Assembly: GCF_003061515.1 (NCBI RefSeq) | Contig: NZ_CP028924.1 | Coordinates: 2,356,001-2,420,000 of the forward strand | DNA from: Colwellia sp. Arc7-D | GTDB taxonomy: Bacteria > Pseudomonadota > Gammaproteobacteria > Enterobacterales > Alteromonadaceae | Length of the DNA: 64,000 bases | Direction of reading: 5' to 3' | In this document: positions 10,440 to 64,000 of the stretch, piece by piece | Layout of the letters: the number at the start of each line of letters is the position of its first letter | How positions within the stretch are numbered: the stretch's first letter is position 1 | The notes under the pieces: generated by a model | What the model saw: the letters and a program-made list of their open reading frames with translations, nothing else | Told to the model about the DNA's origin: nothing | Databases searched by the model: none | Program-made: the position numbers and the translations under genes

Positions 10440-10617
10440 TAAAACTGTGCACTACACTTAACTTTACAGAAAGTTTTTCAAGTTAATGTTCGCTCCCCGT
10501 AATGTCTGTCGTGTACTACAAGGATGATAAGTATATTAGAATGTTTTATTAGCGCAGGCTCAGTTGATATGAGCCACCCCTGGGCCCAAAACTAGCAGTA
10601 GTTTTGGGCATTTTTTT
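10440..10617 (+). ncRNA. Candidate small RNA ending in an orphan plus-strand terminator
   Basis: The 416-base gap 10211-10626 has no credible ORF but ends in two consecutive plus-strand hairpins: GGCTCA...TGAGCC (10557-10575) and an 11-base stem followed by seven T (10584-10617). Both flanking genes lie on the minus strand, so no annotated transcript uses this terminator. A TATAAT hexamer near 10329 with TTGATT 14 bases before it is a possible but imperfect promoter, so the 5' end is a guess. I do not recognise the RNA family. Confidence 0.35.
10584..10617 (+). terminator. Orphan rho-independent terminator on the plus strand
   Basis: An 11-base perfect stem (10584-10594 with 10599-10609), loop GCAG, is followed by A and seven T on the plus strand. 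The minus-strand side has no T-run, so it is not the tatD terminator. Confidence 0.8.
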
Positions 10618-29282: not shown

Positions 29283-29936
29283 TTAGTTTTCTGCTAGATG
29301 CCCAGTTTTAACCCATATCAATGTATCTTGCTCAACATAAGGGTGATGAGCACTTAAATGTGGGCTTCTGATCCAAGTACCTGCTGGGTAATGTCCAAGT
29401 TCATCAATAAGCTCTCCACTGATGACATAAATCTCTTCCCCATTAAAGTGATTATGTAAAACAAATTTCTCTCCTGCAGGCCAAAAAACAAGAGCAACAT
29501 TTTCGTTTTCAAAACTATGTAACGGCTTTACTTTTAAATTACCGTAACCGGGTAGCCATGTTTGTTGAGCTGTATCGATACTGATGCGTTGAGTATCTAA
29601 AGGTGACATTTGGTGTAGCTTAACCAGTAATTCACATCCCTGAATGCTAAAAGGCGCATGTATAAAGCCTTTAGGGTTGCGAAAATAACTGCCTGCTGGA
29701 TAATCCCCGGTTTCATCAGAAAACACACCTGAAAGCACGTAGATTTCTTCACCTAAAGGATGATTATGTGAAGTAAATTTTGCACCTGCTTCATATCTAA
29801 CAATACTGGTTGCATGACCGCTTTCACGGTTCTCACGCGCTAATGGTTTTCTCATAACACCAGGTGAAGGGCTTTTTTCCCAAGCTTTTTCTGCTGTATT
29901 AATTACAACCCGTTGTTTAAAGTCCATATTAATCAT
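29283..29936 (-). CDS. Double cupin (ChrR-like anti-sigma factor cupin) protein
   Basis: This 217-residue protein contains two copies of a ChrR-type cupin domain, each with a matching block: FTSHNHPLGEEIYVLSGVFSDETGDYPAGSYFRNP in the first half and the parallel FVLHNHFNGEEIYVISG segment in the second. His, His and Glu in HNHxxGEE are metal ligands in both. ChrR cupins can act as zinc-dependent anti-sigma modules, but the N-terminal sigma-binding domain of ChrR is absent and no sigma factor is adjacent, so an enzyme or sensor role is open. ATG 29936 has GAG upstream. The 346 bases after it on its own strand (28937-29282) hold no gene. Confidence 0.8.
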   Translation of the reverse strand: MINMDFKQRVVINTAEKAWEKSPSPGVMRKPLARENRESGHATSIVRYEAGAKFTSHNHPLGEEIYVLSGVFSDETGDYPAGSYFRNPKGFIHAPFSIQGCELLVKLHQMSPLDTQRISIDTAQQTWLPGYGNLKVKPLHSFENENVALVFWPAGEKFVLHNHFNGEEIYVISGELIDELGHYPAGTWIRSPHLSAHHPYVEQDTLIWVKTGHLAEN

Positions 29937-30374
29937 ATTAAGTTTTCTCACTTGCATTGGTAGACTGGTATGCTGGCTATTTTTTCATATTAATCAGGTT
30001 GAAGTTAATTCATCAAGTAAGCTAATAATCTAGCCCAAAGGTTTAACGATGAATTAAATACAAAAAATACAAATTAAAGTTATTACTTGAATTCGCTATT
30101 TCTGCTACATTAATAGTATTGCTAGTATAAATTGATAAAGGCTTATAATTCAGTTAGCTTTCACTCAATTTAAGCGTGTCGGTATCTTTATTTCAGCTTA
30201 ATTATGCCTAAGCTGTATTAAATCGATTGAGCTATTAAACAAGTATAAGCTAAATAGTAAGCCATATATAATTGCAAGAAAGCTTATCGACACTTGAAAA
30301 CTATAAACTCAAAAAATGTTTACTGCACTAAGGGTAAAACCTTAATTACTATTCACTTATAAGAGTATTTATTT

Positions 30375-59960: not shown

Positions 59961-60428
59961 ATGACACCTGCTATTAATCAACTAAACAAGTTAAATTTAA
60001 CTTATAAAGTGCATCAATATAACCATGAGCCTGGTGCTAAGTCTTATGGTCTTGAAGCAGCTGAAAAGCTTAAAGTTAACGCTGAACTTGTTTACAAAAC
60101 CTTAGTGGTTGATGTCGACAATAGTTACTTAGCCGTTGCAGTAATACCGGTTATAAAACAGCTTAATTTAAAGAAATTAGCAAAGTCATTAAAAGCTAAA
60201 AAAATTAAAATGGCAGAAGTGAATAAAGTGCAAAATTCAACTGGGTATTTACTCGGTGGTGTAAGTCCATTAGGTCAAAAAAAGGCCTTAGTCACCGTGT
60301 TAGATAAAAGCGCAGAAGTGTTGAATAGCCTATTTGTTAGCGGTGGTAAACGTGGGTTAGAAATAGAATTATCGCCTGACAGTATCGTATTATCGTTACA
60401 AGCTAAATATGCTGATATCATCAGTTAA
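59961..60428 (+). CDS. ybaK: Cys-tRNA(Pro) deacylase YbaK/EbsC
   Basis: This 155-residue protein has the YbaK/INS domain (VYKTLVVDVDNSYLAVAVIPV, then NKVQNSTGYLLGGVSPLG with the catalytic Lys region). It removes mischarged cysteine from tRNA(Pro). It lies 31 bases after pqiC. It is the last core gene before the cassette-like region. Confidence 0.92.
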   Translation: MTPAINQLNKLNLTYKVHQYNHEPGAKSYGLEAAEKLKVNAELVYKTLVVDVDNSYLAVAVIPVIKQLNLKKLAKSLKAKKIKMAEVNKVQNSTGYLLGGVSPLGQKKALVTVLDKSAEVLNSLFVSGGKRGLEIELSPDSIVLSLQAKYADIIS

Positions 60429-60530: not shown

Positions 60531-60625
60531 GCATAACAAATATTTATAGATACTCCGTTGCCACACTTCAATCTGCTGACAAATTATTATGAGTTCTATT
60601 CACCTTAGCGGTTCCTAATAACCCA
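60531..60625 (-). other. Possible terminal attC-like site (weak)
   Basis: On the minus strand, downstream of the 134-residue gene, a GTTATGC heptamer (60531-60537) fits the attC R' core variant and a TAAGTGGG-like start lies near 60615. The body is not clearly similar to the other elements, so this is a weak end-of-array call. Confidence 0.25.
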
Positions 60626-60637
60626 CTTATCATGCAT

Positions 60638-61042
60638 TTATTGGATAGTCTTTTTTCTAGCTCTAAGCCATTTAAATAAGTCTGGAATATCAAAGGATAA
60701 AGAAATTAGATTGCAAACCATTAGAATGATTAAAAAATATCGGTAGTTGTTCGTTAGCACTACTTCAGAAATCATTAAATAATTAACCAGAATAATTGTC
60801 AGAGGAATCCAAAATATTATATGTGGAATTGTCATCGCACTTGAAAAACCACGGTCAAACCATATTGGTATTGCATTGAATAACAGACCTGCAATTGCAA
60901 AACTAACGACTAAACTCGATCCTGGATTTCCCATGAAAAAAATGGAAGCTATATTCACCGGCACAAGTATCAAAAAAACCCAGATCTTTACCCACGTACG
61001 TAATCCCAAATAGCTTTGCCAAATATCAGACAAAAGATTCAT
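60638..61042 (-). CDS. Cassette gene 1: hypothetical membrane protein
   Basis: This 134-residue protein has four predicted helices and no recognised domain. GGAGG lies ten bases before the ATG. It is the integrase-distal end of the putative cassette array, on the same strand as all neighbours. A weak attC-like spacer lies on each side. Confidence 0.6.
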   Translation of the reverse strand: MNLLSDIWQSYLGLRTWVKIWVFLILVPVNIASIFFMGNPGSSLVVSFAIAGLLFNAIPIWFDRGFSSAMTIPHIIFWIPLTIILVNYLMISEVVLTNNYRYFLIILMVCNLISLSFDIPDLFKWLRARKKTIQ

Positions 61043-61142
61043 TTTATTGAAACCTCCAAATACAAATTTTATTAATAGTAGAGCATTAAACTAAAGAGCG
61101 ACTAAAGAGCAAAAACAAACTAACTCGATCCTTGTCATACGT
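61043..61142 (-). other. Degenerate attC-like spacer
   Basis: The 100 bases after the 61143-61472 gene begin on the minus strand with AGTTAAACG at its stop codon and end with CGCTCTTTAGTTTAATGC. The position matches attC, but the core is poorly kept. The call leans on the clearer neighbours. Confidence 0.3.
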
Positions 61143-61472
61143 TTAACTGTGTGCTGTTTGGTTTGATAATTGTGCCGCCTTAGACAAAGCCCACCAACCT
61201 ATAAATATGCTAATGATGATCCTAATTGGAAAATATAATAAGGCTGGCAAATTAAACAACCATAAAACTACACCTTCAGGTAAAACGTAAAAGGAAACTT
61301 GCTTAACCCAGTATATAATTTGAACATACTCTTTTAGGAAATCATTAATTGAAATGCTTAACAAAGACCATTCGTTTAAATAATTAAGCCAAAGTAGATA
61401 AAGGCCAAGCGCCCCATCACCGAAACTGCCAACAACAGAAGACCAACCTAAAATTAATAAAAAAATTCTCAT
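61143..61472 (-). CDS. Cassette gene 2: hypothetical membrane protein
   Basis: This 109-residue protein has an N-terminal hydrophobic segment and further helices, with no recognised domain. ATG 61472 has GAGG five bases upstream. An ATG at 61505 also reads in frame but lies inside the attC-like element, so it would be translated only if the element is read through. Confidence 0.6.
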   Translation of the reverse strand: MRIFLLILGWSSVVGSFGDGALGLYLLWLNYLNEWSLLSISINDFLKEYVQIIYWVKQVSFYVLPEGVVLWLFNLPALLYFPIRIIISIFIGWWALSKAAQLSNQTAHS

Positions 61473-61492
61473 GAGTACCTCTACATAAAAAC

Positions 61493-61600
61493 GTATAACG
61501 CCCATTTTAACGGACTAAATAATAAAGGCTATATATTGACTAAACTTTGTAACAACTAGCTAAATTTAACGTGCTACCCCCTCATGAGCTGTTGTTAGTA
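61493..61600 (-). other. attC-like site, best preserved
   Basis: On the minus strand, the element starts TACTAACAACAGCTCATGAGG directly after the TAA of the downstream-reading gene and ends CCGTTAAAATGGGCGTTATAC. The 5' CTAACAA(C/A)...TCAAG-like start and the 3' (G/C)CNNTTAA...GGGCGTTA end follow the attC pattern (for instance the start TCTAACAA and end GCTTAACTCAAGCGTTAG of the aadA site). Confidence 0.65.
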
Positions 61601-61897
61601 TTACTCTTGAATACGCCAACCTTTTGATTTTATACATGACGCATTCTCGTTAAAAAATGAAAAAAGTTGAATACCAGCAAAAGTTACATCATGACTCTCT
61701 GAATTTTGATTTAATGTTGTGCCACTAACCCCTTGTTTAGCTTGTAAGGCACATTCACTAGCATCTTTCTGAAACAATGCATTGTCAGCTAACATTTCAC
61801 CATATTCCTCATGAACTACCATTGGTGGGGTCGTAGAGCATGAGCTAATCAAAAATAAAATAACAGGTAAAGTAAGTGTTTTAATTTTTAGAGACAT
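61601..61897 (-). CDS. Cassette gene 3: small lipoprotein, unknown function
   Basis: This 98-residue protein has a lipoprotein signal ending LISSC and later Cys residues (DASECALQA, then NASCIKSKGWR). The pattern of a Cys followed later by a C-x3-KGW block recurs in small envelope lipoproteins of marine bacteria. The function is unknown. Its TAA stop is directly followed by the attC-like element. Confidence 0.65.
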   Translation of the reverse strand: MSLKIKTLTLPVILFLISSCSTTPPMVVHEEYGEMLADNALFQKDASECALQAKQGVSGTTLNQNSESHDVTFAGIQLFSFFNENASCIKSKGWRIQE

Positions 61898-61919
61898 AAA
61901 CTGACTTCGAATCCTTATA

Positions 61920-62021
61920 ATGCTAACGCCGTGTTAAGCGGCTTTTAATTGTTGACTAAAATGTGCAGTGAAGTGGAATCTAGCCAACGGTTGAAAATGT
62001 GGCTTGAGCAGCTTCTTAGAT
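61920..62021 (-). other. attC-like site with a classical body
   Basis: On the minus strand, the element begins ATCTAAGAAGCTGCTCAAGCC across the stop codon of the adjacent gene and ends AAAGCCGCTTAACACGGCGTTAGCAT. The CTAA(G/C)AA...CAAGCC start and GCTTAA...GCGTTAG end correspond to the aadA-type attC layout, including the complementary CAAGC/GCTTAA arms. Confidence 0.65.
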
Positions 62022-62357
62022 GCAAATTTCAGCTAATGCTCGTTTGTCTTTATTTATTCTTTGATATGTAGACTCTTCAAGTTCTTGCAGCTGACGATCA
62101 GCAATTGTCGTTTGCGCAGGCTTAGCCATATTCATAATAACAAGTCGAGTTTTGATAGAATTACACAAAAGTGTTTTAGCTTTATCTACATCATTTTCAT
62201 TGATAAGAATTATAGCTGCTTGCATTTCTTTCGCGCCAGCCCAGATTTGATTAACGGCTGGGGTCGCACCAGCAGCTATACCAATATAGCTTCCTGTAAA
62301 AAAGCCACCTACGAAAATAGATAGTGTAAACAATGAAAATATAATTGTAGATTTCAC
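62016..62357 (-). CDS. Cassette gene 4: hypothetical membrane-anchored protein
   Basis: This 113-residue protein has one N-terminal helix with glycines (VGGFFTGSYIGIAAGA) and a soluble helical tail ending in EICI. No domain is recognised. It starts with GTG at 62357, with AAGGA eight bases upstream. Its stop codon lies within the following attC-like element. Confidence 0.6.
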   Translation of the reverse strand: MKSTIIFSLFTLSIFVGGFFTGSYIGIAAGATPAVNQIWAGAKEMQAAIILINENDVDKAKTLLCNSIKTRLVIMNMAKPAQTTIADRQLQELEESTYQRINKDKRALAEICI

Positions 62358-62371
62358 AATAAATTCCTTTT

Positions 62372-62475
62372 GTATATTGCCCCTACTTAAAGGGCTGATA
62401 ATAATTTGCTAAAATGTGTAGCGAAACGAAACCGAGTAAACTCTTAGCTGTATTGCTTTAAATTAGTGTTATATC
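62372..62475 (-). other. attC-like site without a gene attached
   Basis: On the minus strand, the element starts GATATAACACTAATTTAAAGC and ends CAGCCCTTTAAGTAGGGGCAATATAC. The last part matches the GGGCGTTATAC end with GTT changed to CAA, so its core is damaged. It abuts the next attC-like site and no gene lies between them. Confidence 0.5.
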
Positions 62476-62478
62476 AAA

Positions 62479-62586
62479 ATATAACACCTATATTAACGGG
62501 CTAACTTATACAGGCTAAAGCTAGCTAAACTTTGCGAAGAATAAGTGCAGCCAGCTTAATGTGTTTCGTTTACTTGCTTAATAGAC
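62479..62586 (-). other. attC-like site after the Sel1-like lipoprotein gene
   Basis: On the minus strand, the element runs from TATTAAGCAAG near the gene stop to TTAGCCCGTTAATATAGGTGTTATAT. The internal CAAAGTTTAG...TTAG(T/C)CCGTTAA block is shared with the 61493-61600 element. Confidence 0.6.
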
Positions 62587-62592
62587 CACTTA

Positions 62593-63108
62593 TTACTCAA
62601 CCAAATCAATCTCATACAGCGTACTAAGTCCTTCATACTTATGACATTTAACATCGACTCTATTTGAGGACGTATTAATAGATTTTTGGCATGTTACATG
62701 TTGAGATTTTAACCCATACCTTTTAATGTATTCCCTGACTATTTCATCTATATCTTGTTTTTGTTGAGCTGTGGCATAGGAATAAAAAGATTTAAACTCT
62801 TCATTCCATTCTTTAACATTTGCTTCTTTAGCTACGCCTAACCAGCCCATACCAAGTGAAATTGACTGCTCGACATATTGACCTTTTAAAAACATATAAG
62901 CTAAGACATATTGCGAGCCTTTATATCCCCAAGCGGCAGGCTCCTTAAGTAAATGAAATGCTTTTTTATAATTTCCTTTTTTGTATTGAGTTATCCCTGT
63001 AACTTCTTTTACTTCAAGTGAATGTGTTGATTTTCTTATTGAATCTGTCGATTTGCACGACAAAAGAAAATAAACAGTTAAAGTTATTATTACTTGTTTA
63101 ATTTGCAT
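62593..63108 (-). CDS. Cassette gene 5: Sel1/TPR-like lipoprotein
   Basis: This 171-residue protein has a lipoprotein signal (YFLLSC near residue 18) and one or two Sel1-like repeats (ITQYKKGNYKKAFHLLKEPA, then SQYVLAYMFLKGQYVEQSISLGMGWL). Such repeats mediate protein contacts. Its C-terminal third has an extra Cys and no recognised domain. Only 59 bases separate it from the CPXCG pseudogene, with no attC between, so the two may share a cassette. Confidence 0.65.
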   Translation of the reverse strand: MQIKQVIITLTVYFLLSCKSTDSIRKSTHSLEVKEVTGITQYKKGNYKKAFHLLKEPAAWGYKGSQYVLAYMFLKGQYVEQSISLGMGWLGVAKEANVKEWNEEFKSFYSYATAQQKQDIDEIVREYIKRYGLKSQHVTCQKSINTSSNRVDVKCHKYEGLSTLYEIDLVE

Positions 63109-63167
63109 CTCAATCCTTTATAAATGCGCAGAGTCTTTTGTTCTTTTAAAATTATTAATTGTATATA

Positions 63168-63366
63168 TTAAAACGCTTCATCATCACTATAAACATTAAC
63201 GGATAGCTCACCATCTACACTTTCAGAAACTAAGAAATTTATTGGTTTACAACAAACTTGGCAATCTTCTATATATTGTTGGTTCCGTGTCTGATGGATC
63301 TATCAAAACCTCAATATTCTCTCCACAATATGGACACCCAATAGATTTTTCAGCTAATTGATTCAA
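63168..63366 (-). pseudogene. CPXCG-motif zinc-ribbon protein, frameshifted
   Basis: Read on the minus strand from TTG 63366, the sequence gives NQLAEKSIGCPYCGENIEVL and then IDPSDT. The other frame continues NQQYIEDCQVCCKPINFLVS, then a DGELSVNVYSDDEAF end. Together they make the CPXCG family's full length, with the Cys-Pro-x-Cys-Gly motif and its second CxxC. The frames join at about 63285 if one base is removed from the CC/GG there (199 bases, 66 codons plus one). It is a broken gene or a sequencing error. GGGG lies upstream of the TTG. The family is a small zinc-ribbon protein of unknown role. Confidence 0.72.
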
Positions 63367-63390
63367 TTCTACACCCCATTATTTTCTTAA

Positions 63391-63497
63391 TACGTATCCC
63401 TTAAATAAAGGGCTAAAATGTTGAAGAACGAAACAGAAAACTGTTTTTGTCCTTGTTTTATTTCATGTTAGTTTCATGTTAGTTTCATGTTAGGTAA
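63391..63497 (-). other. Degenerate attC-like site
   Basis: On the minus strand, the element starts ACCTAAC just after the stop of the 63513 gene and ends CATTTTAGCCCTTTATTTAAGGGATACG. The GTT of the expected GGGCGTTATACG end is missing. It contains the three TTTCATGTTAG repeats near its 5' end. Confidence 0.45.
63461..63493. repeat. Three tandem 11-base units
   Basis: TTTCATGTTAG occurs three times head to tail inside the degenerate attC-like element. It looks like a slippage expansion. Confidence 0.8.
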
Positions 63498-63512
63498 GTA
63501 ACCCTACTAATA

Positions 63513-63761
63513 TTAATTTGTCATCTGAGTAAATAAAATAAGTACAGTTAAAATGACAATAAACCACAAGATAACAGAACCTTTCTTTTCTTCGTTTAAC
63601 AATAACTGATTAATTAAAGCTGTTATTAAAGACAGTTCAAATAAGCTCCAAAAAATAACTATCGGTAATAATAGTAAACCTTCAGATCCATTAGATAATA
63701 AGAGTATGGCAGCGAGCAAGAAAAGATGACTACCAATAAAACTTTTTAAAATTGCATCCAT
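63513..63761 (-). CDS. Cassette gene 6: small membrane protein, unknown
   Basis: This 82-residue protein has two or three hydrophobic helices and a charged connecting loop. ATG 63761 is chosen because the upstream residues of a longer reading (to 63845) fall inside an attC-like element; AAGGA lies ten bases before it. The function is unknown. Confidence 0.5.
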   Translation of the reverse strand: MDAILKSFIGSHLFLLAAILLLSNGSEGLLLLPIVIFWSLFELSLITALINQLLLNEEKKGSVILWFIVILTVLILFTQMTN

Positions 63762-63777
63762 ACATCCTTTTTCCTTA

Positions 63778-63895
63778 GCACATAACATCTCAAAAAGAGC
63801 TTTAAAATAATTGGGTGAAATAAGCGACGAATGAATAAAAACCAACTATTTCATGTACTGGTTTAATGATTTTTTATATAGAAATAACACTCAAG
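63778..63895 (-). other. Possible attC-like site (3' half clear, 5' half unclear)
   Basis: On the minus strand, AGCTCTTTTTGAGATGTTATGTGC (63778-63801) resembles the CCCNTTAA...GGGCGTTATA end of the better elements. The 5' end cannot be placed; it should lie near the stop codon of the partial gene at 63898. Confidence 0.35.
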
Positions 63896-63897
63896 TT

Positions 63898-64000
63898 TCA
63901 GGGGTTTTGTTTTGATACATTATCATTTTTTAGCATTAAAACAATTAGGTAAACAATGTTAAGAGGTGGAGTAATACATAATATTACACCGATTAATGTT
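63898..64000 (-). CDS. Partial CDS: C-terminus of a membrane protein (runs off the window)
   Basis: From 63999 down to a TGA at 63898-63900, the minus strand reads TLIGVILCITPPLNIVYLIV, then LMLKNDNVSKQNP. It is a hydrophobic membrane-protein end without a start in this window. It has the same strand and position as the cassette genes, so it is probably another cassette member. Confidence 0.45.
   Translation of the reverse strand, partial: TLIGVILCITPPLNIVYLIVLMLKNDNVSKQNP

Follow-up and report, generated by a model that had tools for sequence, protein, structure and literature searches.

The usual description of an integron is that of a single integrase with a single attI site and a single array of gene cassettes, and arrays lacking an integrase are mostly described as wreckage. 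The closest described systems are the Vibrio superintegron, CALINs (clusters of attC sites lacking integron-integrases, defined by at least two attC sites with no integrase gene, intI, nearby) and the dispersed CALINs of Xanthomonas and Shewanella. In Vibrio the array is co-directional with replication (PMC11023631; this and all further citations refer to excerpts of the papers named). CALINs can be mobilised in trans (PMC12444791), and in Xanthomonas and Shewanella several integrase-less attC clusters occur per genome, in Xanthomonas at repeated loci, with no attI reported at them in the excerpts concerned (PMC12444791, PMC9229058). Here, a 64,000-nucleotide stretch of the Colwellia sp. Arc7-D chromosome (G000:C1:2356001-2420000 of a single-contig genome of 4.305 Mb; this whole stretch is called the window) was compared with these systems. 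Sequence evidence shows positions 60531-64000 of the window to be the distal end of an integron of the sedentary chromosomal type, called array A below. As in the Vibrio superintegron, a Vibrio-type integrase (IntI), a long one-way cassette array, attC sites with compensatory changes and a LexA-like CTGTN8ACAG box before intI were present; unlike in Vibrio, the attC sites were of a Colwelliaceae type (~100 bases), the distal end was decayed, and one IntI occurred together with three attI-headed arrays (A, B and E) on one chromosome. Taken alone, the window holds a known kind of integron tail, and the genome-wide arrangement of one integrase and three attI is the new part; the open-licence literature searched, as represented by excerpts, yielded no array with an orphan (integrase-less) attI and no Colwellia integron. 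We put at about 0.8 the probability that the window carries the old distal end of an integron whose single IntI also serves arrays B and E.

Integrase and extent of array A

The intI gene was located at G000:C1:2435555-2436520, on the opposite strand and 15.6 kb past the window; it points away from the array and has a CTGTN8ACAG box before it. The encoded protein is complete (321 amino acids) and is a tyrosine recombinase of the integron type, including the extra domain specific to this family, as judged by TIGR02249 (448.6 bits against a cut-off of 265) and by end-to-end alignment with 2A3V (labelled IntI4 in the match table; E value 7e-127); the motifs R, H-x-x-R, H and Y, which we presume to be the relevant residues, were seen by eye. 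It was the single TIGR02249 match over the cut-off in the genome (2435567-2436514), and its nearest named relatives, among matches from which records of this genome may be absent, were from Colwellia (90% identity). Five tRNA-Asp genes adjoin intI. Of 30 other loci scanned, 7 also had tRNA-Asp past intI, corresponding to five distinct genomes (two being counted twice); several of the 30 loci ended too early to show it. An earlier sequence-only reading had taken positions 60531-64000 for the distal end of a chromosomal integron and had placed intI and attI beyond base 64000; both were found there, the latter as an attI-like module, and the one-orientation attC array shares its chromosome with a full-length integron integrase.

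Array A spanned 18.7 kb between attI at 2435316 and about 2416638 (window 60638), with about 30 attC-like sites in one orientation, about one per small cassette. It ended next to a chromosomal gene (window 59961-60428, plus strand, 155 amino acids, from the open reading frame list; presumably ybaK or YbaK-like), in agreement with the proposed distal end.

The attC sites were searched for with a covariance model (R1) built from 15 clean elements, all outside the window (96 positions, 23 pairs), and among the 15 aligned sites compensatory changes were found in 11 of the 23 predicted pairs. Out of six matches in the 64-kb window, five had E values below 0.01 (2.8e-11 to 0.0058), all on the minus strand between 61922 and 63877, which far exceeds chance. 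The sequence-only reading had proposed such a search for its ~100-base elements, and the independent model, with several matches in a single orientation, bore out their identification as attC. The best match was at 61922-62019 (50.8 bits, E 2.8e-11), followed by 63781-63877 (45.1 bits, E 1e-9), a decayed site at 62375-62472 (29.4 bits, E 2.6e-5), a relic at 63393-63471 (21.6 bits, E 0.004) and a second decayed site at 62489-62584 (21.0 bits, E 0.0058), the last lying only 16 bases from the site at 62375-62472, so that there is no gene between these two. Three perfect 11-base tandem units occupy window 63461-63493, at the 5' end of the relic at 63393-63471. Two elements had been singled out as the clearest: one (61920-62021) coincides with the best match, but the other (61493-61600) did not fare as well, being a minus-strand relic (61494-61598) that reached 10.8 bits over 61494-61563 (E 0.26, filters off), though its GGGCGTTATA end is kept. 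A further possible relic on the minus strand (61056-61139) was seen by eye, R1 giving only a 20-base match at chance level. The sequence-only reading had an attC on the 3' side of each cassette gene; R1 recognised no attC behind either of the last two (61143-61505 and 60638-61042). A lone weak attC-like match at window 29853-29941 (17.6 bits, E 0.054), far from the array, is probably due to chance.

In Colwellia polaris (L060), the left flank was collinear up to genome position 2416431 (window 60431), and was followed by about 4 kb, then by the last 40% of intI, and then by a stretch matching tRNA-Asp genes. The collinearity and the intI/tRNA-Asp remnant place array A between gene 59961-60428 and tRNA-Asp, with the window at its far end. 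R1 found no attC anywhere in the C. polaris locus, and the part with the first 60% of intI missing and no attC match (L060:5981-10381) looks like an emptied integron site.

Ageing of attC sites along the arrays

R1 scores dropped with distance from attI in array A (rho -0.82, n = 30, p 3e-8, a gradient partly helped by the training of R1 on A's nearer sites) and in array B (rho -0.64, n = 30, p 1.3e-4; no B site was in the training set). Because of this training, the gradient was retested by folding only. The fold z-score rose with distance from attI in array A (rho 0.73, n = 30, p 5e-6) and in array B (rho 0.59, n = 27, p 1.3e-3; three of the weakest B sites were left unfolded), and its mean in array A was -0.30 for the seven window sites vs -2.58 for the 23 sites outside. 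Near attI, the bottom strands of two array A sites had z-scores of -4.3 and -3.5, with 0 of 200 shuffles as good, and four fresh sites, from A and B, gave the attC hairpin when their bottom strands were folded (z -3.5 to -4.5). Within the window, the bottom strand of the best-scoring site (61922-62019) folds poorly now (z -0.32), that of 63781-63877 folds no longer (z +0.80) and 62375-62472 had a z of -0.57; these three folded no better than shuffles, 46 to 156 of 200 being at least as good. The z-score was -0.49 for the relic at 61494-61598 and +1.34 for the possible relic at 61056-61139, which does not fold. Since the window attC no longer fold, the cassettes there are probably fixed, that is, still present and no longer mobile, and the decayed tail is a time series of attC ageing.

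The ~100-base elements could also be ordinary interspersed repeats and not attC, and the sequence-only reading had named scattered copies elsewhere in the genome as the observation that would speak for this. Literally such copies exist, with at least 73 attC genome-wide at E ≤ 0.001 (R1 counts for the genome being lower bounds, here from 150 scored candidates) at several places; however, at most of these places they form arrays with small genes in between and do not resemble interspersed repeats. Each array has a single orientation with about one element per small gene, an IntI gene is adjacent to array A, and 339 matches to like sites were obtained, in many of the 54 IntI loci of relatives. 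Together with the pairing and folding results above, orientation and IntI evidence refute the repeat explanation, to which we assign next to no probability.

Three attI sites and one integrase

Three attI sites were identified by sequence in the genome, 0.17-0.5 Mb apart, each heading a cassette array (a fourth match was an inverted-repeat echo). Array B (1934.7-1951.5 kb, plus strand) comprised about 30 sites including weak ones, and array E (2106.5-2111 kb, plus strand) seven sites by R1. In addition, R1 gave small attC clusters C (2719-2722 kb), D (2831-2835 kb), F (159-161 kb) and G (2803 kb), and single sites at 1788 kb and 2258 kb. No further match to the integron integrase family over the cut-off was found in the genome, and none near B, E, C, D, F or G. 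The attI modules of B (G000:C1:1934086-1934308) and E (G000:C1:2106049-2106228) were 85% and 90% identical to that of A over 225 and 177 bases, respectively. In each of the three copies, an inverted repeat of about 31 bases separated a CTGTN8ACAG box from attI proper, which ended in CTGTTA; the 33 bases before the predicted crossover were identical in all three, followed by one difference and then by CTGTTA. B and E, like clusters C, D, F and G, have no integrase nearby and count as CALINs; unlike CALINs in their usual 'no attI' reading, they carry attI, through which they could acquire cassettes as complete integrons do. Outside class 1, attI sites escape detection by IntegronFinder 2.0 (PMC9024848), so that platforms like B and E would be filed as CALINs.

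The inverted repeat between the LexA-like box and attI (L001:1090-1120, L120:6143-6174 and L124:5062-5093) was also seen by eye in many copies of the genus; by pattern it is terminator-like in A, not in B. A cassette-facing promoter-like sequence, TTGAAT-N17-TATATT, stands at the same place in attI-A (L001:1030-1058) and attI-B (L120:6205-6233) and is a candidate cassette promoter. Promoter-like hits numbered five in attI-A (shuffles 2.3, standard deviation 1.3) and one in attI-B (shuffles 3.1), which is near chance.

One could also imagine that the dispersed arrays arose by cassette insertion at unrelated attG-like sites, the attI copies being added by homologous recombination. Insertion at attG sites has been described (PMC12444791, PMC12901181), and attC clusters C, D, F, G, H and I had no attI detectable by BLAST. 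However, attG insertion leaves unexplained that B and E start with the whole module of box, inverted repeat and attI as in A, and intI remnants were present at some orphan loci of relatives (see below), which makes this origin very unlikely in our view.

Arrays A, B and E are all co-directional with replication, while cluster F and the single site at 1788 kb, where GC skew is near zero, are not. The skew was above zero at 1.93 and 2.10 Mb, and below zero at 2.25 Mb as well as in the tested stretches beyond. The orientation of the three arrays fits the Vibrio rule that attC bottom strands lie on the leading-strand template (PMC11023631). A symmetric placement of A and B about the terminus was considered and dropped, the maximum of the cumulative skew lying at 2.1325 Mb (stretch examined 2.101-2.2635 Mb) vs an A-B midpoint of 2.1848 Mb.

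A and B have one cassette in common, matching over 591 bases without mismatch with a left edge of GGGCG^TTATG, that is, including five bases before the crossover; counted from attI, this is the third cassette unit of B. The two copies showed four differences in the last ~29 bases of attC, which looks chimeric. In the copy from B (L120:7605-7702; the copy from A is L009:13613-13710), the 3' end pairs less with its own 5' arm, as judged by eye. A match between B and E (1377 bases at 98.9%) was dropped as a shared cassette, as it is an insertion sequence lying in attC of both arrays. An array B cassette without a listed gene (L120:6779-7095) was 96.5% identical over 318 bases to the first attI-side cassette of genome G006 (L182:13419-13735), so that cassettes are common to different species too.

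Given one integrase and three attI-headed arrays, the enzyme probably supplies distant arrays that lack an integrase gene. By established integron biology, IntI would capture circular cassettes at attI, cutting between G and TTA; new captures would push older cassettes leftwards, and with age their attC would lose the hairpin and become fixed. IntI may bind all three attI, cassettes entering at each, and orphan platforms would arise by loss of intI, their attI being kept under selection by an integrase elsewhere that uses attI in trans. An account that we somewhat favour is that of a distributed integron, in which one integrase would serve attI platforms around the chromosome, and orphan attI would be kept working beyond species divergence without an integrase in cis, exchanging cassettes with the main array and seemingly evolving with the attI of their own genome.

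Across the genus (one genome per species in the collection, with draft genomes that can split arrays), the attI module was matched in 14 of 17 genomes, in G013 on the promoter side only. Altogether, 28 distinct attI loci were used (L140-L169, from 40 match rows; L163 and L164 were repeats, and inverted-repeat echoes and short pieces were unused). Full-length intI stood beside seven of them (with an in-frame stop in G006) and broken or partial intI beside four, and 17 had none within 1.5 kb by tblastn. The attI module was conserved in most of the 28 loci and mostly ended in CTGTT (by eye), and the sequence after it differed at most loci, G009_a and G011_a looking alike there (by eye). The CTGTN8ACAG box was at the expected place in 4 of the 4 loci with partial intI, and at 11 of the 17 orphans the fetched stretch of up to 1.5 kb contained same-strand attC downstream; in G004 one lay at 2.5 kb. 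Remnants of the start of intI were aligned by eye beside orphans G001_b, G011_b (a 36-residue match), G010 and G012_b, so at least some orphans derive from integrons in which intI was lost. G001 (single contig) had three attI and a single integrase over the cut-off, and G015 (draft) had three attI matches and no integrase over the cut-off.

attI-E was 90% identical to attI-A but only 80% to its positional counterpart in G005; on the attI tree, A, B and E clustered (node supports 0.949 and 0.532; attI of array A nearest to G006; three of the 28 loci, G013_a, G013_b and G014_b, were omitted as too divergent or partial). Mean attI identity was 0.777 within genomes (15 pairs) vs 0.699 between genomes (285 pairs). 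These comparisons lend weak support to attI copies evolving together within a genome. Recombination is generally poor when attI and IntI are non-cognate, and co-evolution of attI with its integrase has been proposed (PMC8946536), a view that fits attI copies staying alike within this genome.

The same orphan attI locus is carried by G001 and G004, with flanks of 94.5% (left, over 5133 bases) and 93.0% identity (right, over 5054 bases). The attI module was identical at 206 of 206 positions, the neighbouring intergenic stretch at 92 of 96, and the neighbouring gene, which we take to be ung, differed at 19 of 239 third codon positions. In G001 a cassette directly follows attI; in G004 about 4.5 kb of additional DNA, situated precisely at CTG^TTA, separates the crossover from the same cassette and includes a 90.9-bit attC. 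The cassette-bearing stretch behind was 99.94% identical over 1635 bases despite the diverged flanks. This is most simply read as entry of cassettes into both orphan platforms after the two species had separated.

B and E may nevertheless be dead relics that lost intI recently, with attI conserved for lack of time and the cassette exchange older than the loss. The intI remnants at several orphans point this way, as does the proposal that CALINs are degraded integrons (PMC9024848), and 6 of the 17 orphan loci had no attC in the fetched stretch. Such a history is hard to square with an orphan attI identical between two species whose neighbouring DNA is 5.5% different, with the precise 4.5 kb difference at this attI, with the near-identical cassettes behind it between diverged flanks, and with a well-folding attC at the head of B, and we consider it unlikely.

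Several observations weigh against a single IntI serving live platforms from a distance and against the ageing of attC sites. Besides the orphan loci without attC and the help that the array A gradient received from R1 training (of which array B and the fold test are free), the decay gradient was absent in array E (rho -0.14, n = 7), and no trace of a former intI was seen at B and E. The CTGTN8ACAG box was at the expected place in only 7 of the 17 orphans vs 6 of the 7 loci with full-length intI. The cassette shared by A and B could stem from the same circle being captured twice independently, or from homologous recombination, and the orphan attI could be merely young relics. G004 has two other full-length IntI of its own, so that a trans-acting enzyme there need not be the same one; its extra DNA also contains insertion-sequence genes, and the difference from G001 could be read instead as a loss in G001.

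If attI are kept in trans, the cassette store of a genome would be larger and more dispersed than its annotation shows, cassette order could be selected at several places simultaneously, an attI search would be needed whenever 'complete integrons' and 'CALINs' are counted, and many arrays filed as dead CALINs could be live platforms. The genus offers a natural comparison: two species have an orphan attI at the same locus, one with and one without additional cassette DNA at the crossover.

Cassette genes and a recombinase near the GC-skew maximum

The open frames of the window bore out six complete small genes, one frameshifted and one partial gene, all on the minus strand, as the sequence-only reading had them. 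In line with its remark that nearly all are of unknown function, none of the six complete genes reached a Pfam cut-off. From the distal end, the complete genes are the last cassette-like gene at 60638-61042 (134 amino acids), 61143-61505 (120 amino acids counted from the first ATG), 61601-61897 (98 amino acids, with a lipoprotein-like start by eye), 62016-62357 (113 amino acids), 62593-63108 (171 amino acids, with a weak Sel1 match of 23.5 bits, under the cut-off of 30.7) and 63513-63845 (110 amino acids from a TTG, with an ATG inside). The frameshifted gene (about 63160-63365, by eye) has a CPYCG start and presumably belongs to a cysteine-rich family, and the partial gene at 63898-64000 runs off the window to 64110 (70 amino acids; L009:4399-4611). 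In an Rfam scan of the window no attC was matched, the sole match being the small RNA SdsR/RyeB at 10525-10617 on the plus strand (43 bits against a gathering score of 38).

Over array A as a whole, the Pfam cut-off was passed by 9 of 30 genes (RDD, DUF2071, Ribonuc_L-PSP, TonB_C, Rce1-like, Peptidase_S41, IspA, SMI1_KNR4 and DUF1375) and not by the other 21, and PADLOC gave nothing for 10 array A genes. In array B, 3 of 10 genes were over the Pfam cut-off; the gene at L120:13277-14224 matched DUF6602 in Pfam and NucC-like endonucleases in PADLOC (74 bits), and is a possible phage-defence cassette. An IS110-family insertion sequence (NF033542, 198 bits; L009:15592-16545), which we take to be of the IS1111-attC group, splits attC s07 of array A (position by eye). 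A 27-base mini attC between two array A genes (L009:13134-13160, 19.5 bits) has R and L boxes only and no middle, and is perhaps a deletion between the hairpin arms.

Outside the window, the gene at G000:C1:2120009-2121334 (L006) encodes a tyrosine recombinase of 412 amino acids. It lies some 12 kb away from the GC-skew maximum, and just upstream of it is a 30-base palindrome, TATGTCCGATAC-N6-GTATTGGACATA. Neither XerD nor XerC had a match over the cut-off in the same genome, IntI being the best match, and the XerD cut-off was passed by 0 of 17 genus genomes (G004, G007 and G016 had matches of 180-212 bits); these cut-offs are strict, being passed by 4 of 14 and 2 of 14 control genomes. Colwellia psychrerythraea has been listed as lacking dif/Xer, the existence of a substitute being left open (PMC2731167), and a single-recombinase XerL/dif system has been shown in Legionellales (PMC9765430). 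The palindrome occurred at exactly one place in 16 of the 17 genus genomes (13 without mismatch and three with one; the reversed control gave 0 hits), the genome that lacked it being 66% complete; in G065 it stands behind the recombinase gene instead (by eye). Among 39 family genomes, the recombinase was found in 15 of 18 without XerC vs 3 of 21 with XerC (Fisher p 2e-5), XerC presence being a match of at least 300 bits and some recombinase matches being only 31-47% identical. Named homologs of the recombinase, among the 120 matches listed, were mostly from Colwellia and Thalassotalea. The recombinase and its palindrome together are a candidate replacement for XerCD/dif.

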